This document shows positions 4,605 to 41,901 of a stretch of 64,000 bases of DNA, in pieces. This DNA comes from Bryum argenteum (Eukaryota; Streptophyta; Bryopsida; Bryales; Bryaceae): contig CM073321.1 of NCBI GenBank assembly GCA_037043015.1, forward strand, positions 4,593,001 to 4,657,000, in the 5' to 3' direction. Under the pieces are notes generated by a model. That model ran no database searches, was not told the DNA's origin, and saw only the letters and a program-made list of their open reading frames with translations. Position 1 is the first letter of the stretch. Every line of letters begins with the position of its first letter. A program made the translations under genes and the position numbers.

Positions 4605-6860
4605 CTACGGAGTTCCACCATAAGCGACAATACGAGATTGGATAAATGCTCGTTGACGCCGACGTGTCCAGCTAGAATCATTGTCTTGCATCAATGGACT
4701 ATCAAGAAGGCGTTGCAGTCTTTCGCGACGCCGGTCCTCAATGCTTGACTTAGGTAACGAGTGGCGGCGGTTTTCTGACAAAGGCTTGATTGCTCCCTGT
4801 TCGGTAGACTTTGAAGGGCATGGTTTTGGACTCTCCAAAACACGATCCTGAACAAAATAAAACAACGGTATTTCTTATAAGTGAAGGAGCTAAAAGATTC
4901 ATACGAGCAATAGGTAGCATATGAGTCAAATGTCTAAGAATTGTCTAACGTATTAGAGTGTATAGCAGTAGATCTACAAATAGGTGATCCTTCTCGTAAA
5001 CACTTAACTCTAAGCATAAAATGGACACTATGCACTAACCCTCAAGGGATGAAGTAACGAACCTTTACAAAAACTTCTTCAGAAATATTCACGTCGATGT
5101 CGTACAACATAGGCTTTGTAGGTGTACATGTAATTTGAAGAGGAGAACCATTATGATTTATCGTAGGAGGCCACACGGGGGAAGCGGATTGCATCACTTC
5201 GGAGGTGATGACTTAGTGACAGGGCTATTAACTACTCCATCTTCTACCGCCATTGTCGAAAAATCCATGGTAGATTGAGCCATTTCAGCAGACTGCAATA
5301 ATCGTCCTCTACTCCGAAGCGAAGGCCCGAAATCTGCAGCTTTCATTAGAGAATCCATAGAAGCACGACAATCACCCTGCGTATTCTATTTCAACAATAT
5401 TCCAAACTAATCATCAATTATCCGAGAGAACATAAAGTTCATTCAAGAGAGGCTTGTGTTAAGAAAAACTAAAGATCACATTGTCTTCATATTCACAAAT
5501 TCAAAATTTGGAAACCTATGAAAGGTCCTACAAAGCTACTACAGGAGCTTCACATTCTAAGATACGAATTCAAATTAAACCAAAGGGTTGAAAATTACCC
5601 GACAATAGAATATAAAATAATTTTTCATTCTATTAATGCCTTTTGTATATCATTATACAGATCTATTGATGCACGATCATCATATAATATGGCACGTCCA
5701 AATTGAAACGATGACCGAAACTTGCTAAGGGGACCGACAAACTCATGTAGCTCTAACAGCTACGGCAAAACCTCATCTAACAAACTAGAATCCTTGTGTG
5801 CCCTATTGTCCTTGTAAGACCAAGATGGTAGTAAAAGAACATTTTCCCGCTGATTAAGCATGTGCTTAACCGGACTATCATCTATGATGAGCGTATTAGC
5901 CTCCATATAAAAACCATCGAAGCTATTGAAGAGATGAGCTGACAAGGTCTTAAGGAAGATAGACTTTTGAGTTCCCGGTTCCTTCATGAACAATGGTTGG
6001 CTCCCACTAGATTTCAAGGGAATCATGTCACAGTCCTCTTGACCAAGAATTCGTAATGGCCTTATAGGGTTTATAGGACCGAAGAGAAAATCACAAATGG
6101 CTTCTGTGGTTGTTCTCATCCTCGAACTCCAAACCGTGATGGTAGCAAACGATGCCACCCGAGAGAGAAGTCCTTACAGTTGGGCCTCACACATACAAGC
6201 TTCTTTCCCACCTCGGTTGGCAACGTGGCCGAGTGAACACGGAAGTCACGGTTTTCGTATCCTTTAGCTTCCCAAAATGGCGTGCAATTGCACACGATAC
6301 CATTGAGGTCGAGAACAACATTTAACCAAGTACCGGAGGATTTCCTTGGAACTCGACCTATGCCTTTCCTAGAACTTAGATCATTGACCGATCGTCGTTG
6401 ACTGAAATGAAAACGGCGCACCATGACAAAAAATTATGGGGGATTTTTTGTCACTGGTGCAATGATATCAAGGTCAGAATCATGTAATACATCGCAACAA
6501 GGCCATGGGTGAGAGCAGAGTGTGTAGAATTGAATATACCTGATTATCACAATTGCTCTCCTCTTAGTCAACTTGGACACCCATTGACCCGAGTGACTGC
6601 TGAGTGCAATCTATCTCATCACGGAAAGCAACAACATTCTCTTTATGTGAGACATCATGCATTTTAAGTGTGTCCTCCACCGGTGGAACCCGCTCATGGT
6701 GATAACATTCAAGCGTGACATCATCCATGACTGGAACATGGATTGCTTGGTCATCCAAATTAACATCTGGCAGCGCAATACAAGTTCGCGGAATTAGGAA
6801 ACAATATGATGGAGGAAATAGAATATGGGAGCCAACATGAAGCAGATGGAAAAAGGGCAA
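4605..6860 (-). pseudogene. FCP1/NIF-type HAD phosphatase-like pseudogene, copy 2
   Basis: Multi-exon minus-strand gene. The N-terminal acidic exon (6564-6860) leads to motif I, LDLNGIVC (about 6300), then a frame with TVWSSRM (about 6125), a FLKTLSAHLF segment and motif III, LIIDDSPVKH (about 5870-5890). Tail exons contain DFSTMAVEDGVVNSP (about 5230), an SEEVFVK block (about 5085) and an Arg-rich last exon (4605-4853, after a TTGTTCAG acceptor). In the NIF/FCP1 family the first motif is DxDx(T/V); here the second Asp is Asn, so catalysis may be altered even in an intact copy. Damage: a frameshift near 6165, a Trp-to-TAG stop near 5757 and a frameshift near 5210. It lies about 120 bp past the end of the ParB-methyltransferase-like gene, as copy 3 does, with one A-type palindrome between them. 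Confidence 0.65.
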
Positions 6861-6887
6861 CAGTTTAGCTCGAGTCGAGCCAAACTG
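6861..6887. repeat. A-type palindrome, phosphatase-gene position
   Basis: Half-site CAGTTTAGCTCGA, one central base, then its reverse complement with one mismatch. It lies between the phosphatase-like N-terminal exon and the 3' end of the methyltransferase-like gene. A B-type palindrome occupies the equivalent place at 24988-25008. Confidence 0.9.
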
Positions 6888-7006
6888 CAAAATTGTAAAG
6901 GCCTGTATTAATTACAAAAAAATGTCTCAGAGTTTGATACAAAATTTCACATGTATATGTGTTTTCCGGCATTTACAGCTTAAATACTAGACACTCGATT
7001 CAAAAT

Positions 7007-7849
7007 CTAAGTTGAAGGAGGACCTGTAGATTCTTCTTCTGCGTCACCCACAGGTCGTAATTCAGGCGTAGGAGAGGAAGGCGTAGGCGCGGAAGGCTCG
7101 GTAGTTGGAGGTGGCCAGGACGTGAGTGGTTGCGAAGTAGTAGGACCAGCATGTGTAGCTCCTGCATCACCACTCTGAGCAGTAGTGATTGCCATTGTTT
7201 GAACCGAAGTTAATGGCTTGCCGGAAGATAAAACCCGCATCATCTCCATCATCTGGGCATGGCGTTCCTGGTCCATCTTATCGCGTTCTTTCTGCGCAAT
7301 TTGCTGCTGCGCAAGGAGCTCTTCTAATTTCCTCCGCTGTGCCATTTCCTCCTCGAACTTCCGCTATAGTGCTGCGAATTCGGCACTCTCCTCGGCCTTG
7401 AACCTACTTGAGGGTGAGTCTTTCGACAAGGGATTACATTTCCCCTTTTTACCCACCCTGCCGCCTCCTCGCCCAGGATCAGTACGCAACTCTTGCGGTG
7501 TCCGAGGAGTCGTGTCCAACTCCATGTCTTCCTCTTCAACTGGAGCGGAGTCATCCCCTCCAGAACCAAGGCTGTAAGTGCTGCCTTCACCGTGATGTAG
7601 CCTTCCGCTTGACCCAGAATCCTCCCTGTCGGGGATGTCCGCCTCATCGTCTACACCATCCAAGGACGCAACAGCTTTGCGCTTGCCCTTCAAGAGCATG
7701 CCCCCCACCTCTAGAAACTCCTCTTTGTCGACAAAATATCCATTCACGGAGAAGTCAGTGGGATCAAGAGTAAGCCCTTCGTTGTACGCGTGGTCGATGT
7801 CCTCTTTATCTTCAACGTCAAATATGGAGTAGGCATCGAGAGACAGCAT
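7007..7849 (-). pseudogene. ParB-methyltransferase-like gene copy A, C-terminal exon
   Basis: Exon following a TTTATTGTAG acceptor at 7850. It starts MLSLDAYSIFDVED, aligns with the start of the last exon of copy B (MCLLMNYSISSSD) and would complete the segment after methyltransferase motif I. Then come an acidic Ser/Gly-rich region, a Glu/Gln/Lys/Arg coiled coil (RKFEEEMAQRRKLEELLAQQ, about 7270-7360) and a Pro/Thr-rich tail. One in-frame TAG at about 7361 falls where Gln fits the coiled coil (AL-stop-RKFEEE), consistent with CAG to TAG. The exon is separated from the rest of the gene by a 5.4-kb intron that has taken up foreign sequence (7850-13274). Confidence 0.6.
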
Positions 7850-7859
7850 CTACAATAAA

Positions 7860-8640
7860 CACAGGAACTTAGAAAACGGAATTGCTCTGAAGTTTGACCT
7901 GACATGTTTGCAAAACAAGAAAACGGTAGGACCGTAAAGGCTCTGTCTTACACTTTACATCTAAAAGAAAATCGTACATTAACCGATGTAATACAAAATA
8001 GTGAATTTGGTATTTGGGTTATTCTTTGTGCATTTGTTTCTTTTAATGACAAAAATTGAATATGAAAGAATATAAACTTTATGTAAACTATACCCTTGTA
8101 TTTACAACCACAATATCTATACAAAGTGTATATCTAATTTTCAATGATTAATATCTAATATGCAATTTTTAATATTTATTTTTAAATTATAATTTGATAT
8201 CTTTAATGTTCAATGTCTAATATTTGGTTGTGGTATTTTATGCTTGCTCACTATTAAATGTTGAAAATCAAATATTTAATTCAAAATATGATTGGACATT
8301 ATTATATATAGACATTTGTTTCAATTTTAATATTTACATAGTGTATTTATTAAAAAAGTTGTATTTGGATTATACACAATTGTTTCCAATAAAAATACTC
8401 GACATTGAAGGGTTTACAAATTATATCTTATTTATTTTAATTGATGTGTATTTGTTCAAATAAATCGAGATGAGGTTGTATTTTTTGAAAACTTTGGTAA
8501 TATAGTTGGTAGAAGCACACTATATAGGTTCATGATGATCCGGCCAATATGCATCTGTAACCCCATATTTAACATCTACTCCAAGGATGTTTGTCCAAAT
8601 ACAATCTATCAAAGAATTATCTATGTAAAAGTTTTGAATA
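7860..8640. other. AT-rich intron filler
   Basis: Very AT-rich sequence with imperfect TAATATCTAATAT-like repeats. No gene is supported. It lies inside the last intron of methyltransferase-like copy A. Confidence 0.5.
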
Positions 8641-8644
8641 GGCT

Positions 8645-9295
8645 TCAAATAGCAAGTTGGGTAAAAAGTGTAATTTGAGCAATTTGAGTGATTGGAGTTA
8701 TTTAAGTATTCGAAGTATTGAATACTCAAAGTATTGTAGTAATGAAGTATTAAAGTACTTGAAATATTTGAGGTATTTGAAATATTTAAAGTAATTGAAG
8801 TAGTTGAAGTTATTGAAATATCAAAGTATTGAAGTATTGAAATATTTGAAGTATTTGAAGTATTTGAAGTATTTGAAGTTTTTGAAGTATCTCAAGTATC
8901 TGAAGTATCTGAAGTATTTGAAGAATTTGAAGTCATTGAAGTGATTGAAGTAATTGAAGTAATTGAAGTAATTGAAGTAATTGAAGTTATTGAAGTGTTG
9001 AAGTGTTGAAGTGTTGAAGTATTGAAGTATTTGAAGTATTGACATAATTGATGGTGAGAATTGGAGTAATTGGAATTGGAGTAATTGAAGTACTTGAAGA
9101 ATTTGAAGTCTTTGAAGTGTTGAAGTCTAGAAGTGTTGAAGTGTTGAAGTATGGAAGTATGGAAGTGTTGAAGTATGGAAGTATGGAAGTATGAAAGTAT
9201 GAAAGTATGAAAGTATGAAAGTGTTGAAGTATGGAAGTCTGGAAGTTTGGAAGTATGGTAGTATGGAAGTATGGAAATATGGAGGTATGGAAGTA
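8645..9295. repeat. GAAGTATT/GAAGTATG degenerate array
   Basis: About 650 bases of short tandem units. The GAAGTATTT type runs to about 9050 and the GAAGTATG type from about 9125 to 9290. The Phe/Tyr-rich or Ser/Thr-Leu-rich open frames across it are translations of the repeat. Confidence 0.85.
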
Positions 9296-9509
9296 TTAGA
9301 AATTATTGTGTACGGCAACCTGCGGAGACAAAAAGCACCATTAATAATCAATACATCGATCTTACTACGATCTTTGTGAACCAACAAAGACAAATTCAAG
9401 TAAGACGTATCAAGGCGGATAGAAGGTGAAATCAAGAGAATTCGATGTAATATCGTATATAGAGTCTCGTTGAGTTGACTATCAAGAATATATAGCAAGA
9501 AAATGTCGA

Positions 9510-11785
9510 CCTGAATTTACGATCTCATTTCGGGAGTAACAACCATGTTAGCGATGATTCCGGATCGAGCGGCATCAAGTGTTGAAACATGAAAGAGACG
9601 TAACGCCTCATTAACATGCTCTTGATGGCCACCGACGATCCGCAAAGAAGTCATGAGGATGTTAGGGACTCAATTTGTGCAATACTATAGCAAGATACCG
9701 TAGCAATACTATTGAAGACGACCCCTTGTATAGAAGGGGAATCGGATACTTAAAGCAAGTGGCTCATATTTACAGTGGGACTTACGATTGCATTCTCGCA
9801 AGTGATTCACCGATCGCATTCTCGCAAGTGATTCACCGATACGCATAGTAGCCTCTAATTGCCAAACTGTGATTGGGATTGGTGAGCCTCCATTCTCGTC
9901 ATTTTGTTGACGCATTTGCTTGCTAAGAAGAGCCGACCGGAGGTCGATCCTTAACCGGATAGACACTATTGGGGAAAATGAAAAGGTGGTGGAGTGTCCG
10001 CAATAATACCGCCCGAATCTTGACATAGTTGCTTTGGAGGAGTCTGCGCGGCCGAATCGGCAGACGAGGGCTACGAGATGGACTTTGAGTATTCAACATA
10101 TCTGCTCAATTCACGCATATCGAGATCGATGCAACATGAAAAAGAATACATGCAATAAAAAAAACCAAGAATCGAGCCATCACAATTTGTCACGTTCGAC
10201 AAATGCAAAATAAGAATGTGCTTTCATTAATAAACATACCGCTTGACCAATTTTCTTTGTCTTGGACCTCTCGAGCCTCTTACAATCGAATCGGCGATTG
10301 TATGAACATTGACAATGTGCCGTGCAATTTCTTTGCACAAAAAAGAGCAGATGCTTGAATCAATCTCTTGATGAGAAGTAAATCACAAGTCTTGACAATG
10401 CGGCTACAACTCAGTAATGTAAGAAGAGGTCATTTCTTTACCATATCTCGTGCATGATCTCGTGAATCCTTGACTATGAAAATCAAGTCAAATCGAGACA
10501 GAATCGTTGTCGAAGATCGATATTCTCTTGTCTTTGTCTGCATATGGAAATCATGAACCAAGAAGTCGAAACCGGTGTTCGTGAGGGTAATAGCGAAACA
10601 AGATGAACTGAAATTACAGAAGAAGAACTAGGACCTTCCGATCATCATAGCGCCCTGACGGAGGATTAGCAAACCTAGCACTCTTGTCCGGGAGTTGAGC
10701 ATGATAGTGATACTAGCTTTAGCGATGGAAATTGTTCTTTGCTCCATAGCTTCGTGAATGGTAACTCTGCGCATTCAAAGGAACCCAATGGGTCATATGT
10801 CCTATGATACTCGTACTACTTCTATCGAAAAAGGACATGATAGGAAAGTCCGCACTGTCTTCTTGGTCGCATCTTGTCAAACTCATCAATACAAACCACC
10901 CCTCCATCGCCAAGTACCATAGCTCCTCCTTCAAGGTAGAACTCCCTCGGCAAAAGATCATTCTATGGTCGAAAAGGACACGAAAAATCTTGCGAAGTAG
11001 TTAAGATTGAATAGTTGCAAAGAGGATATTCCTCGATCAAAATATGCAACATTACAACGATAGTTGAGTTACGTGCGATCTTTGGAGTCACGGATAACCG
11101 ATCTTTGTCAATACGGCGAAATGAGGAACCCTTCCCGTGAGGTGTATACGGCAATGGGTGCGATCTTCTCAACAAATTTCAAAACTACGACCCGTGAAAA
11201 TCCACATCTTGATGCCTTGTCGTGAGGTATGCTTTGACCGCCAAAATAATTATACTCAGGTCGAAATAATATACACAAAGATAGACTTGAGCATGTGACA
11301 TGCGAACTACTTAGCTAAAGCATCAACCCCTCAAATATCTTTGTCTTGAATGCGACAAAGGAACAACTACTTATTTAGGATGATTGATCCAATGCTTGAC
11401 GAGAAAGAGTGGAAAAAGGTATTAATTCATGAGTTTCAACCTACGATTTTGCGGTGGAGGGATCTCCAAGGAGAAGAACGTTGATGTCCCCTCTTAGTTT
11501 TACACCATCGGGCGTGATTGCGCTTCCAGGATAGAATTTAGAAATCATTAGAAGTTAAAACTGTCGTTATGAAAAATTCATGGAACACAAAAATATCTCT
11601 CAACAATGACCAGGAGCAGGGCGCCGAGTGAGCTGCAAAGAACAACTAACCTTGCGAGCTCCACCAAAAAGAAGACAAGCTACTGCCTTTTTAACATCAT
11701 CGTGACCAAAGATTGAAGGAGCGATTAGCCCGCACACTTTTTGATATGCATCAGGTCTTCGAGCAAACTCCTTAAACTCCATATC
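9510..11785 (-). pseudogene. MCM5: MCM5-like replicative helicase pseudogene (captured fragment)
   Basis: Blocks in order on the minus strand match MCM5, a subunit of the MCM2-7 helicase. They are [11 protein letters not shown] and [20 protein letters not shown] (exon 11651-11785), [18 protein letters not shown] with the Walker A segment GDPSTAKS (11445 to about 11525), FVEKIAPIAVYTS (about 11180), a Walker B region with VCIDEFDKM and [13 protein letters not shown] (10720-10960), and LDFHSQGFTRS-like and HIVNVHTIADS segments (10260-10510). A winged-helix-like end with QNDENGGSPIPITV (about 9880) and STLDAARSGI (about 9560) completes it. Donors and acceptors remain at several block borders, so it is an unprocessed copy, not a retrocopy. 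Frameshifts, stops and inserted sequence break it. The N-terminal OB-fold half is not recognisable. It lies in the last intron of methyltransferase-like copy A, same strand. Confidence 0.75.
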
Positions 11786-11799
11786 CTGCCAATCGAAAC

Positions 11800-12980
11800 C
11801 AGTATTTATATCAAACTTTACAAACCTCGCACGTGCACCATTCGTAGGTCTTTGGGCAAGTTGTAGGCTCTCTGCCGGACCTCCGATACCGATTCTGAGG
11901 GTTCTATCGGCCCCTCGCCCGCCCCTGAAGCATCTTCGTCTTGCCCCACCGGTTGGGTCTCCCGAGAACAAGTGACGCTTCTCGCTCTCCGACGTCGACA
12001 GGCCTTTACGCAACTTTCGAGTCACGGTCTCCACCGTGGTCGGGAGGCGCCATCCGTGGGTGGCCCCCAGGGTTCCGACGACTCCGAGGGCGCCCGTTCA
12101 TAGCGATCGAGGACTTGCTGCCGGCCCACCATGGTCCTCGATTACGGCGGTGGCGGTCGTGCTCGCGAGGAACGATAGTCAATAGAAGAAGGGGGGGGGA
12201 CGATGCGGCGGCGATGGCGCAAAGAGCATGATGGATGCAAAGTGGAACCCTAGATGCAACGCAGATCTTGTGACAGCGACGGAAAGAGAAGAGTCAAGCC
12301 GAGACGAGGATGGAGAACGACCGACCTCAAGGTGACCTAATCCGAGCGGCGGGAGGGACGAGCAGAGAGGAAGCTCAAGTATGGGGTTGGCGACACCGAT
12401 AGGGTTTCGGGAAGGAAGTATGAAACACGGGGTTGGTGAGGAGTGAGAGTAGAGGATCGATTAAGGTGCGGGCGGAGGGCGGCGGGAGAGGAGGAGAGAG
12501 GAGGCCGAAAGGCAAGATGGAAGCGAAGGAAGCAAGAGGTGCGGCGAGCGATGGCAAGACAGCTCTCACACGGAATTCTTCAACGCAGTGCTGGAACCAA
12601 CACACACGAGGACCCGACCCGATCGCATGGAGGCGGCGGGGGCAATGACTCCTCACAAAGATCTGCGAAGAGAAGTCGAGTGGTGGTCGAGATGCCGTGC
12701 ACGCTCGAAGCCGCGATCTGCGCCTCACGGACCAAGACAGACTCCGACCATCTCTCTCCTCCTCAAGTCCGCTGCGCTGCCTGGCCTGGCCTCGTCACTA
12801 AGGGCTGTCCACTCTCTTGGGGGAGCGCGGACTTGCCCAGCGGAGGGCGCTGCCGGCGCGATGCCGCCGTTTGCGTTTGTCTGCCACAGTAAGAGAGAAG
12901 CCTTATAGAGAGAGAAAATGCTTGTGTAGGTGTGAACGCACAAGGAGATAGGTCATTGGACCTTTTTAGAAACCCGTCGG
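11800..12980. other. GC-rich stretch of unclear origin
   Basis: GC-rich sequence upstream of the MCM5-like exons. It has long overlapping frames on both strands (for example 11600-12034 minus, which reaches the MCM5 exon through a probable 40-bp intron) but no recognisable domain except MCM5 at its low end. It may be captured 5' flank of the MCM5 locus or another captured fragment. Confidence 0.35.
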
Positions 12981-13027
12981 GGCGCTCAATACAAAGACTC
13001 TGTCAGATGACAGAGCCAATAAAAATG

Positions 13028-13261
13028 ACAGTTTAGCTCGAGTCAAGCTAAACTGTAAGGGGCACATGATGTCTATATAGATATGACAGTTTAGCTTGAG
13101 TTGAGCTAAACTGTCATACAGTTTAGCTTGACTCGAGCTAAACTGTAGGAAATCCTACGATTACAAACTGAGTGACAGTTTAGCTCGGGTCGAGCTAAAT
13201 TGTAGGGAATCCCACGATTACAAACTGAGTGTGACAGTTTAGCTTGACTCGAGCTAAACTG
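13028..13261. repeat. A-type palindrome cluster, last-intron position (5 copies)
   Basis: Palindromes at 13029-13055, 13087-13113, 13119-13145, 13176-13202 and 13235-13261 share half-site CAGTTTAGCTCGA with 0-2 mismatches around a central C or G. The last three sit in a tandem repeat of about 57-59 bases whose linker reads ATTACAAACTGAGTG. They lie just inside the intron donor at 13274. Confidence 0.95.
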
Positions 13262-13274
13262 TATGGAAGCTTAC

Positions 13275-14633
13275 CACGCTTGCGCAGACTGCTTTTCCGC
13301 TGGCGCAGACGAGAAAAATATTCTCCAACTCCTGGCAGAAAAGCTGGATGACTTGCAAATAAAAATCCATCCTCAACTCGATCGGGTACATGTGATACCG
13401 AGACTCGTTGTACTTCCGCGGCTTCTCGTAAAGCGCGTGTTTTGGGGCGCGATACTCGATCTCTGGCAGTCTCGCGAGTTTCACGTTTTTGTCTAATCAT
13501 GAAGAGAAGACGCACGGGCTCCGAGGCTTGCTTTGCTTTCGCATTGAATCTAGCGATCCGTTTGTGCGAGGATGGGTAGTACAATGATGGAATCAGCTTA
13601 TAGTTTGACCCTGGGAAGTAGGTAGGATTTGTCGCAAACGCCTCAACTTGCGCGTAATCACTATCATCCCCGCAAATAATAACCAGCAGGGTATATCTGT
13701 GAGAGCTGGCTTGTTCTGCGACGATAAGATCGCCATGAACATTTTGAAGAATGGGTGGTCAGGCGAGGAATCGGAGGTGCTAATACTACCACTACCCTGA
13801 ACCAGTCTGAAGTCAATGATTCCAACGTTCATCTTAGGTGCAACCTCCGGCCATGAGTTCTCAGGCCAATCTCCAAGCCTCAGTGGTGTTTTGCGATGGA
13901 AGGAACAGAATATAACACTACCGATAGGGCCTATAAACTTCTCGCGCTTTTCCAGAAATACCTCGAAGAACCTCTTTGCGTAGGGAGAGAGATCCTCGCA
14001 GCTGGTATTCCTGTGCTAGGTTTGCCTCTGATCCGCGTAATATTTATCAGGGATACCCCATTCTAAAAGTGCGCGCTTCGAAGCCTTGGTGACGTGGTAA
14101 TCCTTTTTAAATTTCTTCCACGCAACCACGTCGAACTCGTTATTCTTGAAGATCTCGAGTGCAGATCGGATCTTGTGGATCTGAAGCTGGGCGATCGCCT
14201 TCCGCTTCAACCATTCAACGTACTCCTTGACGGAGTAGCAATCTTTAAGTAGGGTTGCTGGGTGTTTCGGGGTAACCTTCGGATATTCTAGTTTCGGAGA
14301 CGGACCTGACCTATTCAACATATGTGAACAGAGTTTCCTGTGATCCGACTCTGAAAGGTTACCCAAGTTCTTAAAAAATTCCCTGGATAGGGTTTGGTCG
14401 TTGTCTGGTTTGAACCATGTTTTGTCACACAGCATCCTCAGGGAGTAGGGGTTGATAAGGGTCCCTTGGGCGACACTTCCAATTAACTATGTACATAGGT
14501 CGCAGGGATCATCAGGGAAGGTGATGATCTTTAGCTCATTCGTAAAGGACAAGACCTTGTTCTTTGCCTCTACTTGGGCCGTGGCAACATTGATCATGGC
14601 AAATCTTTGTCGAGTAGATTCAACAAATTTACG
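13275..14633 (-). pseudogene. ParB-methyltransferase-like gene copy A, methyltransferase-like exon
   Basis: Begins KFVESTRQRFAMINVATAQ and aligns through its whole length with copy B (26454-27452). Landmarks are KRFFEVFLEKRE (about 13960), MNVGIIDFRLVQ at the place where copy B has VGIMCFRNL (a candidate degenerate motif IV), and near the end ELRMDFYLQVIQLFCQ followed by a motif-I-like ENIFLVCASGKAVCAS. In beta-class N4/N6 DNA methyltransferases motif IV precedes motif I, as here, but no DPPY is visible. The family call is therefore inference and activity is unlikely in this copy. Damage: TAG near 14487, TAG at 14016-14018, and two compensating frameshifts near 13675 and 13490. No AG acceptor is evident before the exon, unlike copy B. 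It ends at a strong GTG/GTAAGC donor. Confidence 0.6.
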
Positions 14634-14737
14634 CAATGCCACGTGAAGTAGTGTGAGATTTCGGATTATAAAGTGCGCATGCGAAATTCAAAAGCGATTG
14701 ATTATAAGAAGTGTTGGGGTTCAATAAGGAGCAGCGA

Positions 14738-14920: not shown

Positions 14921-14983
14921 CCACGGTAAGTTGTTCACAATTAAAGAAGGTAGAGTTGCTATGGGACTTGAGATAATACTTAC

Positions 14984-16407: not shown

Positions 16408-16487
16408 CTGACTGTTAAGAGAGTGTGTTAGTTGATTGGAACGGTTTGAATATACACGAAGCTTAGTTTATCCTTCCTAGTACTACT

Positions 16488-18360: not shown

Positions 18361-18379
18361 GGGCCCTAAACCCTAAACT

Positions 18380-30092: not shown

Positions 30093-30159
30093 CTGCTGAA
30101 CTTTATTTAATCTTTGGAACATCAACACAACTCGGTTACTGTTGACTCGAGTTGAACTG

Positions 30160-31190: not shown

Positions 31191-31870
31191 CCAGAAACTT
31201 CTGTGAGTGCCGCCCAAGCCGCAAAAGCGCCGTCGAAAACGTGCGACCCACTTGATGCAGCAAAAAGGTCGAGGAGCATACAACTTCAAGGCGCAAAAGA
31301 CAGCGTCAAGGCGCATGTGCAAAAAAAATAGACAGCTTCGGCAGCTAACAGGGTCGAAGATCAGGCGCAAAGAAGACAAAAAATTTTGGAAGCTAACAGC
31401 GTCAAGGAGCAGAGCGAGCAGAGTCGATGAGCAGATCTAACAGCGTCAAGGCCCTAACAGGAAAGAAAAAACGAATCAACAAGCGAATAACACGAGCTTC
31501 GAGGCCACGACAGAGCGACGCGCAAAGAAGGTCCAGAAAATCAAAACAAGCTCAAACAATCTCGCCGACACAGAATAAGGAGAACAAGCAAAAGGAGCAT
31601 GCGGCGGCGTAGAAGGGGGCAAGACAAGGAATCGAATGGGGGCCAAACCCTAGGCCCTCCACTCTCCATTTAACGCCTGAATTTGGGCGGGCAGCCCGTA
31701 ATCCTGCCTAGGCCACCTTTCACACTGCCCCTGCCTACGCGAGCTGCCTTAGACGTTGCCCCCGCCAAATCTTGCCCCGGGCAGCCTTTTCTTGCCCCTT
31801 TCATGTCTCCCTGTCTCTGCCCATCCATGTTTGGGTGTGTGCCCGATCATTTTCACATAATTTACTTTTC
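31191..31870. other. GC-richer block, possible promoter region of copy B
   Basis: Runs of AAGGCGCA, GGTCGA and GCGTCAAGG words (31230-31480) and a C-rich stretch (31680-31830). Its distance from the first coding exon is like that of the block at 18380-18900 in unit A. No coding call. Confidence 0.3.
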
Positions 31871-32099
31871 CAACTATAAGAAAATTATGTTGCATTAGTG
31901 TACAAACTCTCATTGCGCATCATAACACTACACTAAATTCCATAATAACAATTGGATTCACTAATTTCTAACTATTTTTCTAGTTTATTTTTTTGAAAAC
32001 AAGATTAGTTCAGTAAATGCCAGTTCTAACACTATATTAGTTGTATCGTAAAGATTTATGCTCCACAACACTTTACAATAGTACGTGTAGTATTAGATA

Positions 32100-33300
32100 A
32101 ATCTTTTAGCGGAAATAGGATAAATTAAATACCAAAAAGTTGTGTGTAGGTATATACTGAAAATAGATACAAACAAGAAAAATCATACAGTATTTAATTG
32201 TCAGAACCCAAACACTAATTCAACTTTGATAATGCTCATATCCCACTACCCATTAGTTAACGTTCTCTAAAATAATAAGGTCATCGTTGTCTGGAAAAGG
32301 AAGCTAAAAAAAATCCCCTCTACCAATTTCTTAGATGTTGTCATGCTCATTATTTTTATCTGTGTGTGTTTATTTTCCTGTTGCTTTTTATCATCTATTT
32401 TTTCTTTTTGGTTTGTTGTTTTTACTTCTTTAACATTATTTTTTTATGTAATCTAAAAAGCATAAAAAGTAGGTGAGTAGGTAAGTACGTTTGTATGTTG
32501 GTAGATTGGTAGCTAGATAGGTAGGAATGTTTGTTCGAGATAGGTACGTAGGTTGATAAGAAGGATCGCCTGATCCACACCCAATTCTGTAATACAAGAA
32601 ATGTCCCTATCGTCTAGACGTAGAAGCTAAATAAGTATCATGTGTCTTCAAATTTTTTAGACAATACTATGTTTATTATATTTGTGTGTGTATATGTTTT
32701 TTACTCGAGTATACGTAGTTCAAAATCAAGACGAGACTCCCAAATTGGAATTTGGCTTTGCAAAATTATCCGCATAAACTTTGGAGTAGAGGGAGCACCC
32801 ATCAAAAAATTTAAACTAAAATATTACTTTCAATCTATTCGTCTACGTTATCCAAAATAGCAAGAGTCTGATTTGGTCATCTTAGATCTTTAGGGGTTAA
32901 GGGTTAATTACAAAAGAATTGTTTGTAGGTTTTTATATAAGTTAGATACAAACAATAATGAACAAACAATATTTCATTGTCAACAATCAAGTATTGATTC
33001 AACATTGATAATGCTCATATCTCAGTACTTATTTCTTAACTATCTCTAAACTTATAAGGTCCTTGTTGTTTTCTTGACGCTGAAGCTAAAAAAGTATCCC
33101 CAATCTACCAATTTCTTAAAGATTATGAAGCTTATTATTTTTATGTGTGCGTGCTTATTTTCTTGTTGCTTTTTATTTTTTTATTTATTTTTGTTATTTT
33201 TGCTTTTTTAACATTATTTTTTATACATAATCCAAAATATATAATAGATTGGTATATTTGTATGTTGGTAGGTTGGTACATAGGTACGTGTGTAACTAAG
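32100..33300. repeat. Diverged direct duplication of about 400 bp
   Basis: The stretch at about 32105-32560 and that at about 32900-33300 share blocks in the same order: GATAATGCTCATATC, TCTACCAATTTCTTA, GTGTTTATTTTC(C/T)TG and TTGCTTTTTAT, then TTGTATGTTGGTAG. A related reverse-strand copy may lie at about 63020-63330, which holds ACCAACCTACCAAC and an A-rich counterpart. This suggests a dispersed repeat family of unknown class. Confidence 0.6.
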
Positions 33301-33442
33301 TGGGTAAAAAGGAACACCGGATTAATAACCTATTTTTATTATATATATATAAATAGAAAATACCATGACTATACATCATACATACCATAACCATATATCA
33401 CGCATACTAAGGGATCGCCAAAGAATATTATGTTATAGAAGT

Positions 33443-33443
<1 letters not shown>

Positions 33444-33488
<45 letters not shown>
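33444..33488. repeat. (AT)n microsatellite
   Basis: About 22 uninterrupted AT units. Confidence 0.95.
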
Positions 33489-34980
33489 TAGTAAAGTCAC
33501 CATTGCTAAAATAAATACGTGTAGACGTGGCCTCTCACGATTGAGAACATCAATTACATTGATCGATTACCTGATGATGGTGAATCACTCTAATATCACG
33601 TCCACCACTGTCTATGATATCACTTGTTTGTTCTATTAATTCCAAATTTTTTCTAAACCCTTGGACCACTGTACTATAATTAGAATAACTTTCTCGCAAA
33701 TTTTATTTTGCCTGTATTGTACTGTTACTATAACTACTATATTATTCCTATTATATTAAATCATCATTAGATTATGAGTATTATATTAATAATATTACAA
33801 CATAAAAGTTTATTTATAATATTATTGGCTACATATTAATAATATTATTGGGTAGATACAAAAGCGAGTAGGAAGGTTTGAGAGAACCTATTGGACAACA
33901 TAAATAAGACAGTGGGAGTATAGAGATAGAAGATATCATTGAGAAACATCATATATACTATAGCTATGAATCACACATACCATGGCCATACATCATTCAT
34001 ACCATAGCCATACATTATACATACCAAAAGAACGTCCAACAATATTATGTTATAGAAGTAGATTATTGGCTACAAACCGCCTTACAAATACTAATACATT
34101 ATTTTTCTAATAGTCTTCGAGAAGTCACTTCAAATAGAATGAGAGTCAATTTAGTTACTTTGAAACCTAAATAACAATGAAATATATTTTAATTATCAAC
34201 ACTCAATTGATATGTAGATGTTGATCATGCACCATTGTTATAACTTCTATACTAGGAATATAACATTAAAATACTAAATACTATAGCTAATATATTATTT
34301 TATTAATGTATTATTATAACGCTATGTTTTGTTAAAAACAAAAAACACATGACAAAACGAACTAGAGTAAATCTAGAGTGAATTACCCTCGTTTCTTGAC
34401 CTTCTCAATGAACATCAAGTCTTTGAGGTAACTACAAGACGCACAGAAGGTGGCAATAAACATGTAAGTAGCCTAGCTATAAACCTTCAAAACATGGAGT
34501 GATGCATACTATCCTCCTTTCTTTGAGCACTTTAGTAACAAGCATTCTTAAAGCTAATTCAAATGTAAATGTCTTTGATATGAATGATGTAGTATGCTTT
34601 GATGTCCAAAGCGTGCAATAAAGCAAAAATATGCAAGCAAGGCATTGTTGCCATAAGAGATTTTTGCAATGTAAGGATAAGCTTGTGCTAGAAACCGAAA
34701 GGCTCAAAGCATAAAGATATCAAATCCAACACAAAAATATTAACATAAAATGCATAGCAAAACCACAAAAATTTCTGAAGCGAAAGATTGAGCTAAATAA
34801 CTATACTAGGCAAAAATTAAAGCGATCTCAAAAAACTACTAGAGAGGCATCAACCATTTTAGCACCACTTATACCAACCTAAATTTCATAACCACACGTA
34901 GTAGAACATATGAGATATTCACATTATATCTCATATACAAGAACCTTAATGTACTCTAAAACCTAAAAAGCCTACAGCCT
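33489..34980. other. AT-rich intergenic DNA
   Basis: Contains short repeats such as CATACCATAGCCATACATCA near 33360-33410 and 33955-34030. No gene is supported. Confidence 0.5.
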
Positions 34981-34983
34981 AAT

Positions 34984-35060
34984 GCCTAAACCCTAAACCC
35001 TAAACATTGAATCCTAACCAAACCCTAAACCCTAAACTCTAAACCCTAGACCTTGAACAC
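34984..35060. repeat. Interstitial telomere-like CCCTAAA repeats
   Basis: Several perfect and degenerate CCCTAAA units, the Arabidopsis-type plant telomere repeat. This is the clearest hint that the DNA is from a plant. Confidence 0.8.
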
Positions 35061-35069
35061 TATACCCTA

Positions 35070-36660
35070 TCCCCTATAGTCCTATAACTTAAAAGCGTAT
35101 AGAAAACAATAAATATTATGTTACATCTTCTTTATTACAATCAATTGTGTTCTTTTATTGAAAATACTTTTGAAGGGAGGTAGTTTTAGAACTTATTGTT
35201 TGAAAAATAAAAAGATTGCAACATGTCTAGACATATTTAAATAAGTCTGCTGAGGGTCAAATATGTAGATCATAATGGAGTAGCATTTGATTCCTATTCA
35301 AGTACTGCCACTTGGCACTATATGTAATAAAAGAGGACGTTAAAACAATTTGCTAGGCTTCCAAGTATAAATTAAAAATTTAGAAATTTTGAGAAGAATT
35401 CAGACAAGTAATGTGTAGGGATAATATACCACTACTGCGGAGGACAGGAGGTTTGTCCATCAAAATATTTTGGATATGAAAGCAGAATAAATAATTTGCA
35501 ATTTTATTTTTTTTTGGTTTTTTTGAATCAATTAATGTATTACTTAATTGCGAAATCAATACATACATGTAGTAGGATACTGAGTATCCAGAGAGTCAAT
35601 TTCTTTTGTATTTTCTACTATCTACGTACCGTCTAGAAATTACCCTGCCTGGCTCCTAGGCCTGAGAGTTCTTCCTAAATAATTTATAACTATAGCAACA
35701 AAATTTTCTAATCTTTTTGGAAAAGAATTCGGCAAATAATATCACTTATTCTCAGATTCTAATTCTTGCATGCTTTAATGTGCCGAACACTAAATTCAAT
35801 CCACGTTCCCCCTTGGAATTTCCCATTATAGGGGGAGGCTAATAAAAGGCTGCCTGGTACTTTTTTGCTTATAAACCCTTAAATTTCGAAGAAGAGGCCT
35901 TGTAGGGTAAAAAGGGGGTGCAGAACCCAAATTAAAAAATAAATAAAAATAAAAAAAATGACCTTGAGAGGGACAAAATGGGGAAACCAAAAATTGGGGC
36001 CCCATCTTTGTGCTGAACCGGATTGGATTTAGTGAGGATTGCTTTAATGCCATGAACGAATAGACTTACCTTTAGCTGTAAAGGCAAATTTGAATTTGAG
36101 CAATGAAAAAGACTATTCATTTGCTGCCTTAGCTTTCTCGCCACTCCAAGTACTTGAGCGACTTCGGAATGGTTCTCCTCCACTTTTTTTCTTGTGTCTT
36201 ATCGTCATTGCCTTTCGCCAGCGCTCTCCTGTTTTTGCTGTAATCTCGGTGTCCGTGAGGTCAGTGTTAGCTCGACATACGTAGACCGAGTTTAGTGTTT
36301 GGAGCAACAAAGCATCTCAGAGTTCTCTTGGTAGTTGAATTGTAGAGCTGATGGGCTAGGTGAATGCTCGATTGATTCTGTTTCGGGGTGCTCGATTGAT
36401 TCTGATGCGTTGTTTTTATCGAGGCTTCGGGGTGCTCGATTTTGATGTAGAATGGTGTGTCAATTTTGCACTAGTACATAACTGTCTCCCGTCAATCATT
36501 ACGTTTCGAGCGTATTGAAGTTCGATGCTGCTGATTGCTATATTACGCATAGTTTAGCTTTTGGGATGGTACGCTCAGGTGCATACGATGTTGTTGAGTG
36601 TTAGCTGGTTTTAAGTTCCGTAGAATCCGCCGATATTTCCGGGAGAATATTAAAGCATAT
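35070..36660. other. Intergenic stretch before unit B palindromes
   Basis: AT-rich to about 36000, then more balanced near 36090-36310. Short overlapping frames have no recognisable domain. By analogy with the other loci this could include the 5' end of DUF7869 copy B. Confidence 0.35.
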
Positions 36661-36678
36661 TGGTCCATAGTGAACGAA

Positions 36679-37487
36679 TTCAACTCGAGTCTAGTTGAAA
36701 TTATATAGCCGTAGTGTATATGTCTATGTTCCACTATAGAGGTTCAACTCAAGTCGAGTTAAATTGTAATTCGTCAAGTATCCGTAATGGTGCCAGAATT
36801 AGGATTGATCTATTCATGGGTGTTGATAGTCAACTCGAGTCGAGTTGAATTGGACATCATCCAGTGTCATTTGGTTTATTTGTAAGGAGATGTTCTCTTT
36901 ACGGATGTAAATATTCAACTCAAGTTGAGTTGAAATTAACGATGCGGATATTCGGCAGGGCCAATGATCTGTAATCTGCCCAACAATATTTAACCCGAAT
37001 CGAGCTAAATAATAATTGGCACATGATATAGTCGTTCGTGCAGTGGATTCGCAGTGGATTCGTCGTCCGTACAGTGGATTCGTTTGTGGATATTCAATTC
37101 GACTCAAGCAAAATATAAAAGTATCTTCTTCAACACAAGAGCAAATTCAAGGCCTTCTTAAGTCTAAATAGACTCGAATACTATATACCACATATATATT
37201 ACGTTCTTGATTGGTGTGATCGTATGGCTACTGATTAACAACTAGAATCGCTCGTGACACTGTCAATGCCTTAAGTATCTTGCATACCAGATTCTAAGAT
37301 AATGACCGTTTTAAATAGCGTAGGAATTCTTTTCCGGGGATTTCAACTCGAGTCCAGTTGAATCTTTTCATACATCTTTTCTTTGTCTAGATTATTTCCT
37401 GCTATTAGTGTTTCCTCGATCGGATTGATGGATATATAATTAAGGGTTTGTTCAGTCATTATTGTTTTCAACTCCACTCGAGTTGAA
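36679..37487. repeat. B-type palindrome cluster upstream of DUF7869 copy B (8 copies)
   Basis: Copies at 36679-36699, 36743-36763, 36839-36859, 36914-36934, 36989-37009, 37093-37113, 37342-37362 and 37467-37487, half-site TTCAACTCGA around one central base, most with 1-3 mismatches. They have the same arm type as the clusters around methyltransferase-like copy B and lie just before the start of the DUF7869-type gene. Confidence 0.95.
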
Positions 37488-37545
37488 CAGCCACAGATAA
37501 TTTTGTTCCTGAACTATTGTTTGGGATGATTTTGCGGTTTCTACC

Positions 37546-38210
37546 ATGGCTTCTCAAGATGTTCAAATGTTTGGTGATTACTTCTCTAATGAGGATGTTG
37601 TGGAGCAACCGGAGGAGCCGGAAAACATTCCAATCTGTGAAGGTATCCCTCGGCGTCTTTGGGCTACTAAGTTCGTTACCCTTTACGGTGACGAGGGTCG
37701 CCTTCTAGCAAAGGGCCTAATCGGCCTATGTCACAGCATCAGTTACGATCTCGTCCTCAGAAGCAACGGTCCACTCGGGCACTCCCGAGTCGCATTTCAA
37801 ATCTCAAAGACTCTTGATGCCACAGTGGTGCCAGATGAGTGGAGATATTCTGTCAGGGCGTGGCCGTTCGATAAAGTCTTCTACAATGGAGCTAGTCTCA
37901 GTGACCATGAAATAAGACACGATCATAACTCTCGTGTTGCACTTCTTGCGAAACCTCAGTCATCGCGTAGCGGACGTTACAATATAGATAGATAGATAGA
38001 TAGAAACTCCGGTCCTTTTTTTTGTAGCGGACGTTACAACAATACAACGAAGAACCTGCCATGTGAAACATCCGTCAAATCGAAAGGGTTATTAACTTTG
38101 GAGTCTATCAATTCTACCCCAAGCAAAGTTTGCTACACCAAGAACTGCGTTCAGCCCTTTAAGAAGGAGAAGATCCGATGTTTCCGAGAGCGGATGTATA
38201 GTGGAACAAC
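37546..38210 (+). pseudogene. DUF7869-type transposase-like pseudogene copy B, N-terminal part
   Basis: Starts MASQDVQMFGDYFSNEDVVE. Alignable with copy C are the stretch around LWATKFVTLYGDEG, WRYSVRAWPFDKVF (copy C has WSYSLRAWPIKHVL), ASLSDHEIRH, and LTLESINSTPSKVCYTKNCV with a CxxxNC pair (copy C has CCPKNCV). A 57-base insertion (37983-38039) containing (GATA)n is flanked by a 16-base direct repeat, GTAGCGGACGTTACAA, and brings in a stop. At 38210 the frame is cut by the LTR-like insertion and resumes at 41056. B-type palindromes lie just upstream. Confidence 0.65.
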
Positions 38211-41050
38211 TGTAGTGTCTATTTATTATCATTTATAGAGTTATTTTAAAAACTTTTTTCTTTTTGGATAGATATTGTAGCAAATATCCGAAAAAGTATA
38301 GAAAAGTTATTGAAAAAGAATAAAAATAGTAAAAATAGCAGAAGAGTAATAGCGTTAATAATAATCAAACGGATGAAGAATTGACAGATGAAAATCTGTA
38401 TGGATGGAAGGGACGGGATGTGTAGGTTACACCTCCTCACAGAGGTGCACCCGTCTATGACACCCTCTCGCACATGTATGTAATGCCTCCGTGTTTAATA
38501 AAATGACGACATTTTGGACTTGAAATTGCTTGTTGTGTTCATGTTTGTCTTCCTCGTCTCCAATTTATAAAAACCGCTTGTGTATGCATTGTATGTTACA
38601 ATTGATGGTGTTGATGAGTGAGTGTTGTGATCATAGTGATCACTGATCAGTAAGGGGAGTTGGCGATTGAGGAAGTGTGTAGCACGGTGAAGGAAAGTTT
38701 TGCTGCACGAAGCGATTGGGGCTTGAAGCGGAGGCATCAGAAGGAAACGAGCAAGTTGCGTCAGAGTCCGGTTCGGATTCCCCTACCATCTTTTAAAACA
38801 TATCAATTTGTTGTCTCTATCAGTAGTGGGCACATACAGGGCTGGATCTTAAAGTGCATGTGAAAGCTGTAAAAAGCGATGCTGACCTGATCGAGAATAA
38901 TGAGGAAAGTGGTCGAAGAGTCGGAAGTTGTTGCTTCCGATCTCTGTTCCGTTTGTCTGTGAAGATTACGGTGCAAATTACTGTTTGTTGAAAGCGGGTT
39001 ATGGTTTGACGTTTCATCTTCGTCTCTGTTGGACAACTCAATTTGTCAAAGTAGAAGTTGAATGATCAAGCAACTACAAACTTTAAAACTCCAACATTGG
39101 GAAATCAGTGAAGAACCTGCAAGTGCTACCGGCGGTTCGTCCTGCTTGTCGAAACGAGATACGGTAATCTAAGACGGAAGCCTTCTCACAAGTCAATGCT
39201 GGCCGAAGAGGGCACAGTGCGATTGTCTGCTCTGCTGATGCAACGAAGGTGACTGAATCAAAGAGGAAGCTACGATCGAAGAGAAACTGCCATTAGTGCG
39301 AGCAACGCTGCTGGAAGTGCTACAATGGTAGGGATGAATCTGCAGCATCCCACGAGTGTGAGAATTTGAGGAGTGTCGTAACCGATTTGGAACGAGAATC
39401 CTTGTGTGTCCGTGAACAGGAGAATTCACAAAGAATTTCGAACTCGTTGTTGCATGATTGATTGAAGCGAGGTGCTGCAAGTCCTTTACATAAGAATCAG
39501 CGACTGCCCAGAATCAAGAGTGCATTTTGACAGGCGAAGGTGTCGGAAGTATGAGTTAAGGGAGTTGTTGGTGCAATTAGAAATCTGTGGTTGAATATCT
39601 GTCGAGCGACTGTGGATTCTTGAAGGAAGAGCTTGTTGTGAATTTGACAGACAGGACGACCTCCTTTTCCCTGCAAGCCCAACAACTGTGTAGTTGTGAT
39701 ATAGTACTGGAGACAACACTGAGATTCAACTGTGATTGGAAATAGAAGAGAGAAGCTTGAAAACCATGTATTCCAAAATTTTATAAGCTGTAAGCTTGCA
39801 TTTGTTGTATTCATTGCATCTGCATGTAGATAGTGAATTGTATATGTGATTGATAAGAATTGGGAAGAAGTTGTGAGAGTTGGATCAAATTCAGAAGAAT
39901 TTCGATCGTTGGAACCGGCGACAGAAATTAGGGATTTGACTTTTTGGCAGTCTGTCTGTTTGTGAGAAGTGCCAAAATTCGCACGGTTTTAGGGTCTGAA
40001 GTCCATGGATATAGGTCCAAATGCACGGATGTAGGTTCTATAGCCCACGGCTTTAGGTCACAATCCACGGCCATAGGTGCTGCATCTCGCGGTTATAGGC
40101 GTTCTGCCTGAAATCAATTAGAACTTTCTTGAATCTTTGAGTGTTTGTAATTTGGAATCCGTACGGCCAATCCCTTTGCAATTTGGTATTCAAACTAATT
40201 GAGTATCTCTGAACAAGATCTTACGGACGGAATTTGCCAATGCATATTTTAAAAATTTGTAAACCAATGTGCAAAACCACCGTGTGAAAAGTATTTGGGG
40301 TATGAAAATGGAATAAGTTTTGATTATTTGGAGTTTGTTTTTGAATACCAAATCAATATTTGGATATTTTTAGAATCTACAGTGGTAGGAAAGAACTATT
40401 GACATAAGAGTAAGTCCTTGGGTTTGAGTTGAGCACTCTTAATTTTGAGTGTTTTATACGAATTATGAGACTAGAATATTGAGTGGTGTTTGTGTTGTAC
40501 AGGGCATTTGCATACATACTTGCATGCGCAAAGACCTATTGACCTGAGCGACTTAGAGAGCTGCATAGTGGTATGTCGTTTCTAAAAGCATTCCCTTGCA
40601 TTTGGACCTATTGACATATTGTTCGCTAGGCGTTGCGTATATAGACTCGTATATTTATACTGAGACTGGACCTATTGACCAAATACCTCTCTGTATTATT
40701 TCAAAGTATTATATCGGCATTTTGCTTGGATGATAGTCTGCATTTGGATCTACTGACATAACCTGAACTACTGACCAGAACTATTGACTTCCTCTAGATT
40801 ACTAGACAAGACTGGGACTGCATTGAGTTTAGATGTAGTACATTGGTAATGACAGTAACCTAAATTGAGTGATCCCTGGGTTTAAGAGTAAATCGCCGCA
40901 TAACAAGCCCTCAGGTACGTTTACACATAGTTATATTTATACCGCGAATACATGTGACCTTAGTCATAATACAACAGACTACTTTGTTTTTCCATCGGTG
41001 AACCACACTCTACTGTAAGGAGTTCAAATTAGGGCAAAATCCATACTACA
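38211..41050. mobile_element. Solo-LTR-like insertion, 2.84 kb
   Basis: The insertion starts TGTAGT and ends ACTACA (TG...CA with a 6-bp inverted end). It is flanked by the direct repeat ACAAC at 38206-38210 and 41051-41055, a 5-bp target-site duplication typical of LTR retrotransposons. Removing it and one ACAAC joins the two halves of the DUF7869-type gene in frame. No reverse transcriptase, integrase or second internal LTR copy is seen, so a long solo LTR is the simplest reading; a large non-autonomous element is the alternative. Inside are small repeat motifs: CCACGG...TATAGGT-like units (39995-40110) and ACCTATTGAC units (40520-40800). The strand is not determined. Confidence 0.75.
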
Positions 41051-41901
41051 ACAACCTACCAATTTAGGTTTCTCATGAAGCCTGACATTCACAAGCACGT
41101 TCATCGGAATGCTGACGGGAAGAGGGTGGTCACGATTAAGGGAATCGATGTTGCTTGCCTGCATGGAGACATATTGCTAGAGAGTGCGGGACAACCTTCC
41201 ATCGATTTCAAACATACCTGGCCGATGGCGTCCAAGAGCATCCTCATCGAAATTCGTCTTTGCTTAAGTCAAATTCTGATGAAGATAGAACTGAAGAGTA
41301 TAGAAGACGCTGTGAACATCTTGTGTTCTATTGGCGCGCTGTGAAGGCAGCACTAGAGGTTCGCATTGAACCTTCGAATGTTCTTCGGGACGGATTTTGG
41401 CCATTATTGAGAATAGATGCAACTTTGGAGGACCAATTTGTTGAAGATGGCGAACTTCGTGAGGAGTTTGGAGAGGATGAGGCCTATGTTGGAGAGATCC
41501 GAGATTGCCTTCAACCATCTTTTCGTGTAGCTCGTGATGTTTATGATGGATACTTTGTTGCTATTTGGCTTGCTGATGGTGACTCGCGACCGGTGTGGAT
41601 TGCGCGAGCGTTGTCAGATCCGAACACAAACCCCGAGCAGCCAAATTGCATCCTTATTCAATTCTTTCGGCCTACATCAACAAATCGAGATGTGCAAGAG
41701 ACCTACAATGGATGGGATTCGGACAAAGGATTGCGTTGGAAGGTTGACGATACTCAACCTCGTTTGTGAGAGAATACAACTTCATTGTTGACATCATGGA
41801 AGTCAAAGGTCAAGAAGGATACAACGGAGTGCACTTTAAAATTTCTAGTGGATCAAATTAAAGTCATTCACGATACTATAGTTGAATTTTCAAATGCTTG
41901 A
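41051..41901 (+). pseudogene. DUF7869-type transposase-like pseudogene copy B, C-terminal part
   Basis: Resumes with KHVHRNADGKRVVTIKGIDVAC, matching the copy C region before its HTH. A frameshift near 41155 switches to the frame with TFHRFQTYLADG (copy C: TFFRWRYAHQDG). The sequence then jumps straight to DRTEEYRRRCEHLVFYWRAV, matching the C-terminal third of copy C, so the DKMD and DNxxGDNKN catalytic core is deleted. RDGFWP, ARDVYDGYF, SDPNTNPEQPN and YNGWDS all match copy C. A TGA at 41767-41769 is followed by continued homology (IKVIHDTIVEFSNA) to 41901. Transposition by this copy is not possible. Confidence 0.7.

Follow-up and report, generated by a model that had tools for sequence, protein, structure and literature searches.

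Results

Parts of Three Transposon Families at One Locus

The window analysed here is a stretch of 64,000 nucleotides (C1:4593001–4657000) from the 258.8 Mb genome of the moss Bryum argenteum, which is assembled in 25 contigs. Contig C1 (44.1 Mb, 17% of the genome bases) is the longest among those compared. The window contains parts of three families, denoted A, B and C, of a large two-gene DNA transposon. Gene 1 encodes a DUF7869 protein, gene 2 encodes a protein with a GQH motif and an FCP1/NIF phosphatase domain, and each family has its own odd palindrome, that is, one with a single-base centre. The close named relatives of the element's proteins are found in the mosses Ceratodon purpureus and Physcomitrium patens, and the remote relatives of DUF7869 in Branchiostoma, Mya and Cymbomonas.

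Unit A is part of a family-A element, of which the left half with DUF7869 was not found:

4309..21222, minus strand: unit A; the right end is the terminal repeat at 4309, and homology to other A copies ends near 21222
4309..4328, plus strand: terminal inverted repeat AACCCCATATTCGTTATATT, 0 mismatches (chance expectation 0.01)
4608..16413, minus strand: gene 2, a single gene, colinear by tblastn with Ceratodon proteins P0106, P0119 and P0115
16413-15026, minus strand: gene-2 front with the GQHS (ParB/DGQHR-like) motif
14627-13272, minus strand: gene-2 middle and C-terminal module, with 3 stops in the middle part
7918-7607, minus strand: gene-2 coil part
6382-5634, minus strand: gene-2 NIF/FCP1 phosphatase (PF03031)
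5370-5203 and 4778-4608, minus strand: gene-2 C-terminal exons near the element end; the same exons occur in other copies
13042..17232, no strand: family-A palindromes, 19 sites scoring 18–20 of 20, with a further one at 6874; they precede gene 2 or lie within its introns
About 7920..13024, no strand: nested insertion of ~5.1 kb, foreign to the element, which splits gene 2 between exons; homology to the copy C1_374001 jumps across it

Unit B retains both ends:

22053..42751, minus strand: unit B element; target duplication ACTT/ACAT, with one mismatch
22053..22072, plus strand: right terminal repeat AACACCATATTCATTATTTT
42732..42751, minus strand: left terminal repeat AACACAATATTCATTAATTT
23056..29031, minus strand: gene 2
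29031-27515, minus strand: gene-2 front with the GQHC motif
27528-26418, minus strand: gene-2 middle
24321-23608, minus strand: gene-2 phosphatase, by homology to unit A and Ceratodon proteins
23208-23056, minus strand: gene-2 C-terminal exon
24998..30082, no strand: family-B palindromes in the gene-2 introns and upstream of gene 2
36689..37477, no strand: family-B palindromes upstream of the DUF7869 gene
37576..41889, plus strand: DUF7869 gene, of which only residues 52–309 and 786–1003 of a 1036-aa relative align

Unit C is represented by gene 1 and its palindromes:

50253..52969, minus strand: DUF7869 gene with stops and frame changes (PF25273, E 1.1e-10)
53168..53786, no strand: family-C palindromes, 9 sites at ≥15 of 20, upstream of the DUF7869 gene

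A preliminary description of this stretch had recognised a phosphatase-like and a ParB-methyltransferase-like gene, on the same strand, in each of two units at 4.6–17.2 and 22.4–30.1 kb. The common strand holds in both units, but the two genes are the two ends of one, because gene 2 of unit A is colinear with single Ceratodon proteins from 16413 to 4608. The extents were also too short, since A runs from 4309 to about 21222 and B from 22053 to 42751. A DUF7869 gene had been associated with the palindrome type of unit B; there is indeed a B array upstream of it, and the gene at 37.5–41.9 kb belongs to the same element (22053–42751). It is a paralogue of the DUF7869-type gene at 50.3–53.0 kb, whose assignment was borne out by PF25273. 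The copies in the window are decayed, with stops, frame changes and a missing DUF7869 core: gene 2 of unit B has 7 stops in the aligned codons of its two front parts and 2 in the phosphatase, and its DUF7869 gene has no match to residues 310–785. No gene 2 of unit C was matched up to 8 kb past the window. The nearest listed C-clade gene-2 match, at C1:4689078, lies on the expected strand about 32 kb beyond the window, and may be the gene 2 of unit C, stretched away by insertions, or another copy.

Element Ends and Layout

Ten of the 13 family-A clusters formed from the first 100 listed A palindromes were taken for reading, chosen by palindromes alone. Homology between copies stopped sharply at the right end in five copies and at the left end in three, and these ends fell in or close to the terminal repeat AACCCCATATTCGTTATATT. 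Copies of A, of the related A' and of B carry terminal repeats of ~20 bp, which begin AACMCM, and a 4-bp target duplication. Both ends were located in five copies (three A, one A' and unit B); the duplications were perfect in three of them (CTAT, ACTT and TTGT) and had one mismatch in the other two, unit B among them. When the fetched loci were searched with the terminal-repeat pattern, 13 of 20 matches were at element ends and the other seven had 3 mismatches; shuffled patterns gave 2.1. In its terminal repeats and fixed target duplication, the element agrees with terminal inverted repeat DNA transposons of the cut-and-paste type.

A complete family-A copy is ~18.6 kb long (C1:201626-220197). 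In the fetched A loci, the order of parts is DUF7869, a middle region, and then gene 2, which diverges from DUF7869, and the palindromes lie before both genes and inside the gene-2 introns. The gene-2 front was present in 8 of the 10 clusters, with only later gene-2 exons in one more, and DUF7869 in 7; the tenth cluster, a partial stretch, had DUF7869 and a short gene-2-like piece. The B and C copies read directly show the same layout.

Palindrome Words and Symmetry

The window contains 40 near-perfect palindromes with a one-base centre, compared to 4–5 in three local shuffles. They follow three words: TTTAGCTCGA-S-TCGAGCTAAA in family A (13.0–17.2 and 6.9 kb), TTCAACTCGA-S-TCGAGTTGAA in family B (25.0–30.1 and 36.7–37.5 kb) and TTATCCCCGG-S-CCGGGGATAA in family C (53.2–53.8 kb). 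Local shuffles gave 0.2–0.4 scoring sites per family. Genome-wide, with up to two mismatches allowed, there were 4821 A, 1817 B and 983 C sites, and none for the reversed-pattern controls. The odd palindromes reported in and around the genes are therefore real, and a chance origin is ruled out by the shuffles and the reversed patterns. One site in the B array, at 36999, fits the A word better (18) than the B word (16). The half-sites have high information across 10–11 bp, and the commonest spacing between centres is 46 bp in A (56 intervals) and C (14 intervals), with more variation in B and A'.

We considered the possibility that the palindromes act as DNA or RNA hairpins, with which their near-perfect symmetry would be consistent. 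Within the 10-bp core, departures confined to one arm numbered 142, 46, 93 and 60 in A, A', B and C (341 in all), while the same departure in both arms occurred 2, 2, 12 and 3 times, with 2.8, 0.2, 5.4 and 2.5 expected. The overall 19 shared departures exceed the 10.9 expected; the excess lies chiefly in B, where it is strongest at position 8 from the centre, and to a small extent in A'. Symmetry of the flanks was also above expectation in A (positions 11–16) and C (positions 11–13), which again suits a hairpin. Against this stand the 341 one-arm departures and the near-expected numbers of both-arm departures in A and C; there is no general compensation. On the whole, the arms are kept mostly independently, so that the half-sites of a dimeric protein fit better than a hairpin. 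A hairpin function is thus mostly rejected by the covariation of the arms, with some excess in B and A', and we regard it as barely credible.

The position of the sites bears on a second alternative, in which the protein bound to the palindromes is a TnpA-like accessory that bridges the element so that it can be excised, on the model of CACTA (En/Spm). CACTA elements encode a protein that binds subterminal repeats specific to the family, and some of these repeats can form palindromes (PMC2613891). Two A' copies do have one palindrome ~0.7 kb from the right end. In the three complete A copies, however, the palindrome found closest to the left terminal repeat is ~3.4–3.6 kb away, and the one closest to the right repeat 2.5 kb; the sites concentrate at promoters and introns, making this role unlikely.

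Association of the Parts and Family-Specific Pairing

The protein searches were scored on the best 86, 150, 150, 150 and 82 candidates, and the link counts derived from them are lower bounds. The best 86 are family-A gene-2 matches, and two of the lists of 150 are for DUF7869 and the phosphatase; genome-wide co-occurrence was counted with these family-A-based lists. A phosphatase match was found within 20 kb of 78 of the 86 listed gene-2 matches (shift null in any orientation: mean 6.9, maximum 16), and in 76 cases it was downstream on the same strand. DUF7869 was found within 25 kb of 50 of the 86 (null mean 8.5, maximum 16), in 48 cases upstream and oppositely oriented, and within 25 kb of 79 of the 150 listed phosphatase matches (null 14.5, maximum 25). 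Both co-occurrence and orientation are far above the shift null, in agreement with the proposal that the genes form one element class; they do not lie mostly apart from each other or from palindromes. C1 carries 70 of the 86 listed gene-2 matches, and 112 of 150 and 116 of 150 in the two other lists.

For the pairing of palindromes with gene 2, clusters were formed from the listed palindrome places on C1 (100 A, 87 B and 45 C), with five family-C places on C2 left out. Gene-2 matches were divided between the B and A clades by eye on identity rank, which gave 77 B places on C1, and the C list has 52 rows on C1, including matches of 39–61% identity that possibly belong to other subfamilies. Within 12 kb, 11 of 13 A clusters had an A-clade gene 2 and none a listed B or C gene; 26 of 30 B clusters had a B gene, none an A gene and one a C gene; and 18 of 24 C clusters had a C gene and none an A or B gene. 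Since the shift nulls are 0.5–1.4, the single cross-pairing is at chance level, and the word type matches the gene-2 clade, as expected if every family uses a palindrome of its own. Among the 11 A pairings, two rest on A' genes from the fetched loci, and the genome-wide list by itself gives 9 of 13. As to the two unmatched A clusters, one has later gene-2 exons and the other lies near a phosphatase match (3.93 Mb). With the distance widened to 22 kb, a listed C-clade gene-2 match accompanied 20 of 24 C clusters, 2 of 13 A clusters and 1 of 30 B clusters. Matches from the A-based DUF7869 list were near 6 of 13 A, 7 of 30 B and 1 of 24 C clusters, and listed phosphatase matches near 10 A, no B and no C clusters.

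In the gene-2 tree, A, A', the Ceratodon proteins and P0122 form one clade, B a second, and C with metagenome proteins a third, each supported at 100/100. In this tree the branches between B and C were flagged as long, and one row (L042), labelled A, is the C locus and is drawn twice. The gene-2 module of C copies is 27–30% identical to that of A. Peptides encoded by A palindromes (LARVELN, FSSTRAK, LARLELN) occur in 3 of 122 public proteins, P0013, P0114 (Ceratodon) and P0122, at places in the protein like those of the palindromes in the moss genome studied here (compared as protein, not DNA, sequence). The A word may therefore be older than the split from Ceratodon.

The palindromes could instead be bound by the N-terminal part of DUF7869 itself, with gene 2 doing something else. 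DUF7869 diverges by family: compared to an A piece, A' (e.g., C1:3622095) is 75–79% and B (e.g., C1:10708982) 61–65% identical, both by place of the match, and C copies are about 45% identical to a public relative. The N-terminal part also has weak helix-turn-helix matches (E 0.17–0.2). On the other hand, palindromes are found at the gene-2 promoter, in the introns and before the phosphatase exons, and in the complete A copies kilobases separate them from the ends, on which a transposase has to act. Binding by DUF7869 appears unlikely.

The Encoded Proteins

The DUF7869 protein has an open frame of 1036 aa in one A' copy (L019:211-3321). An alignment of 49 sequences shows no variation at D592, H628, H630 and D634, and D467 is present in at least 90%. 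D467, D592 and D634 would make up a DDE/D-type triad, and DUF7869 is the candidate transposase of the element; the Pfam scan of gene 1 shows no other transposase domain.

In the gene-2 protein, the GQH(S/C)V(A/E)AS motif is followed by a middle part, a C-terminal module (EFYLxVLDxFC...), a stretch of low complexity and the FCP1/NIF domain. The phosphatase of unit A matches PF03031 with E 4.6e-6 (26.8 bits, cut-off 21.8), and among five Ceratodon relatives scanned the score reaches 46.4 bits. The 15 Ceratodon relatives listed are 1322–1587 aa long, and nine have PF03031; they extend from the gene-2 front across the GQHS motif in the direction of the FCP1/NIF domain. By locus name, 11 are on the U or V chromosome, three are autosomal and one is unplaced.

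The GQH motif follows a hydrophobic strand, a resemblance to the ParB/DGQHR/DUF6551 proteins. Unlike in those, HS or HC replaces HR, and the protein continues into an FCP1 phosphatase. The proposed ParB identity stands at the level of this motif; no significant match to a ParB superfamily profile was found in Pfam, PHROGs, NCBIfam or PDB sequences, a search that a remote fold could escape. Weak matches of other kinds were PF08831 (E 0.0027, a Ceratodon protein) and PADLOC PDC-M66A (E 0.0083, gene-2 front).

The other proposed identity, a DNA methyltransferase that would mark the palindromes, draws on a C-terminal stretch (EFYLxVLDxFC..G...VYxGxK..xAA) that resembles the S-adenosylmethionine-binding motif of class-beta enzymes. 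Pfam, PHROGs, NCBIfam and PDB sequences gave no methyltransferase match for gene 2, and near that place, where no DPPY-like motif was seen, the sequence reads IIDFR, IMCFR or LFDLQ. We consider this identity very improbable. With PADLOC included, neither a methyltransferase nor ParB gave a convincing family match, and both were set aside as names for gene 2.

Ratios of nonsynonymous to synonymous substitution (dN/dS) were calculated for pairs of copies with dS between 0.02 and 1.2. The medians were 0.39 for DUF7869 (15 pairs, 0.29–0.56), 0.17 for the gene-2 front (35 pairs, 0.09–0.50), 0.26 for the gene-2 middle (37 pairs, 0.15–0.71) and 0.21 for the phosphatase (25 pairs, 0.12–1.15, highest at dS 0.02). 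Thus, the measured parts, including the phosphatase, are kept by purifying selection. Several recent pairs have higher dN/dS, as expected for copies that decay after insertion. Between two A copies, C1_200001 and C1_6404001, dS is ~0.8 in the gene-2 front and 0.16 in DUF7869, which suggests recombination between subfamilies.

Other Features

Upstream of gene 2, four fetched A copies have a short extra gene-2 exon piece, which lies in the middle region (e.g., C1_200001, 9299–9445). The middle region of unit A has a CATG-rich 57-bp inverted repeat (19124–19251), and another A copy has a comparable frame rich in His and Asp. The insertion in unit A contains arrays of 8–9-bp repeats at 8.7–9.3 kb and a peptide (11603–12097) that we take to be a fragment resembling MCM helicase. 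Beyond the right end of unit A, at 2125–2475 (minus strand) and 3630–4064, a further FCP1/NIF-like fragment, 29–30% identical to Ceratodon proteins, lies near a 23-bp tandem repeat with inverted halves GGACC/GGTCC; this perhaps represents a fourth family. The interior of unit B has telomere-like AAACCCT repeats (34967–35069). A possible decayed terminal repeat of unit C, TAATATTCATTATTTTGAGAC, was read by eye at about 49866–49890. A 921-codon open frame at 55925–58687 (minus strand) encodes a hAT transposase with DUF659 and hAT dimerisation domains; it is flanked by GC-rich GCGACCGCCGATC arrays at 54.9–55.1, 58.8–58.9, 60.5–60.8 and 62.5 kb, and a perfect 41-bp odd palindrome lies beside it at 54956–54996.

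Discussion

The reading that we favour, with a probability of about one half, is that of a DNA transposon with two genes, in which self-recognition is specific to the family and serves to maintain the element's own expression in the manner of VANC. The palindromes probably let the element's proteins recognise and act on their own family alone. The gene-2 protein would dimerise on the palindromes, with one half-site of ~10–11 bp read by each subunit, and would coat the promoters and introns of its own family, which would thereby stay expressed or unsilenced. The phosphatase domain might act on RNA polymerase II or on chromatin proteins at the bound sites.

Two known systems are comparable. VANDAL21 of Arabidopsis is likewise a multi-gene DNA transposon with noncoding and intronic motif arrays that differ between families, and it encodes a protein of matching motif specificity, to which gene 2 would correspond by analogy (PMC5735166, PMC10398659). 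Its VANC motif arrays precede VANA21 and also occupy introns of VANB21 and VANC21, and they vary from one related element to another (PMC5735166). The VANC motifs themselves are short and arrayed in one orientation, whereas the moss element has odd palindromes of 21–27 bp; and binding and anti-silencing have been demonstrated for VANDAL, while the moss element is known from sequence. Pfam gave DUF7869 for gene 1, NIF for gene 2 and no MULE domain that would place the element in VANDAL (MULE), in a comparison that did not extend to the VANC sequence. DUF7869 and FCP1 are not known as VANDAL proteins.

Like the CACTA elements En/Spm and Tgmt*, with their transposase and DNA-binding protein (PMC2613891), the moss element is about 20 kb long with terminal repeats and family-specific repeats, and it encodes a candidate transposase and a putative DNA-binding protein. 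It differs in its AACMCM ends, in a 4-bp rather than 3-bp duplication and in palindromes that are mostly not subterminal; CACTA ends and a 3-bp duplication were not seen in the copies with ends. The site distribution thus matches the VANC-target arrays better than the subterminal repeats of CACTA, which favours an element-encoded, family-specific DNA-binding protein. Limited searches of the open-licence literature of PubMed Central yielded no description of an element with this set of genes and palindromes.

Several observations weigh against this reading. The excess of departures shared by both arms and the symmetry of the flanks, described above, are among them. Palindrome type tracks the DUF7869 lineage as well as gene 2. 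No ends were found in the family-C stretches examined, and one A' locus has five palindromes outside the terminal repeat, which may derive from an adjacent copy. The ParB-like identity of gene 2 is only a motif, GQHS: DUF6551 matches were sub-threshold (E 0.13, and E 0.084 with a cut-out 91-aa piece only), and the whole C exon had no DUF6551 match. The HAD motif is DxD, and the active-site position of the gene-2 phosphatase, which reads DLNG, departs from it.

More tentatively, the families may constitute a new superfamily of moss transposons, in which each has an odd palindrome as its address and a fusion protein brings an FCP1-like phosphatase to its own promoters, giving parallel, non-crossing anti-silencing or expression systems that accumulate on a single chromosome, which could be a sex chromosome. 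Some mosses have a sex chromosome that is larger and richer in repeats than any other chromosome, and in others it is the smallest (PMC10619864). That C1 is a sex chromosome is speculation.

With at least three clades and three words, the families provide a natural series of candidate protein–DNA pairs in many copies within one genome, which allows the evolution of DNA specificity and of transposon self-recognition to be tested. They suggest that selfish addressing of the VANC kind had more than one origin, in this case together with a phosphatase domain. Furthermore, the concentration of the element on C1 and, in the matches found, on the U and V chromosomes of Ceratodon is relevant to the way in which repeats accumulate on the sex chromosomes of mosses.

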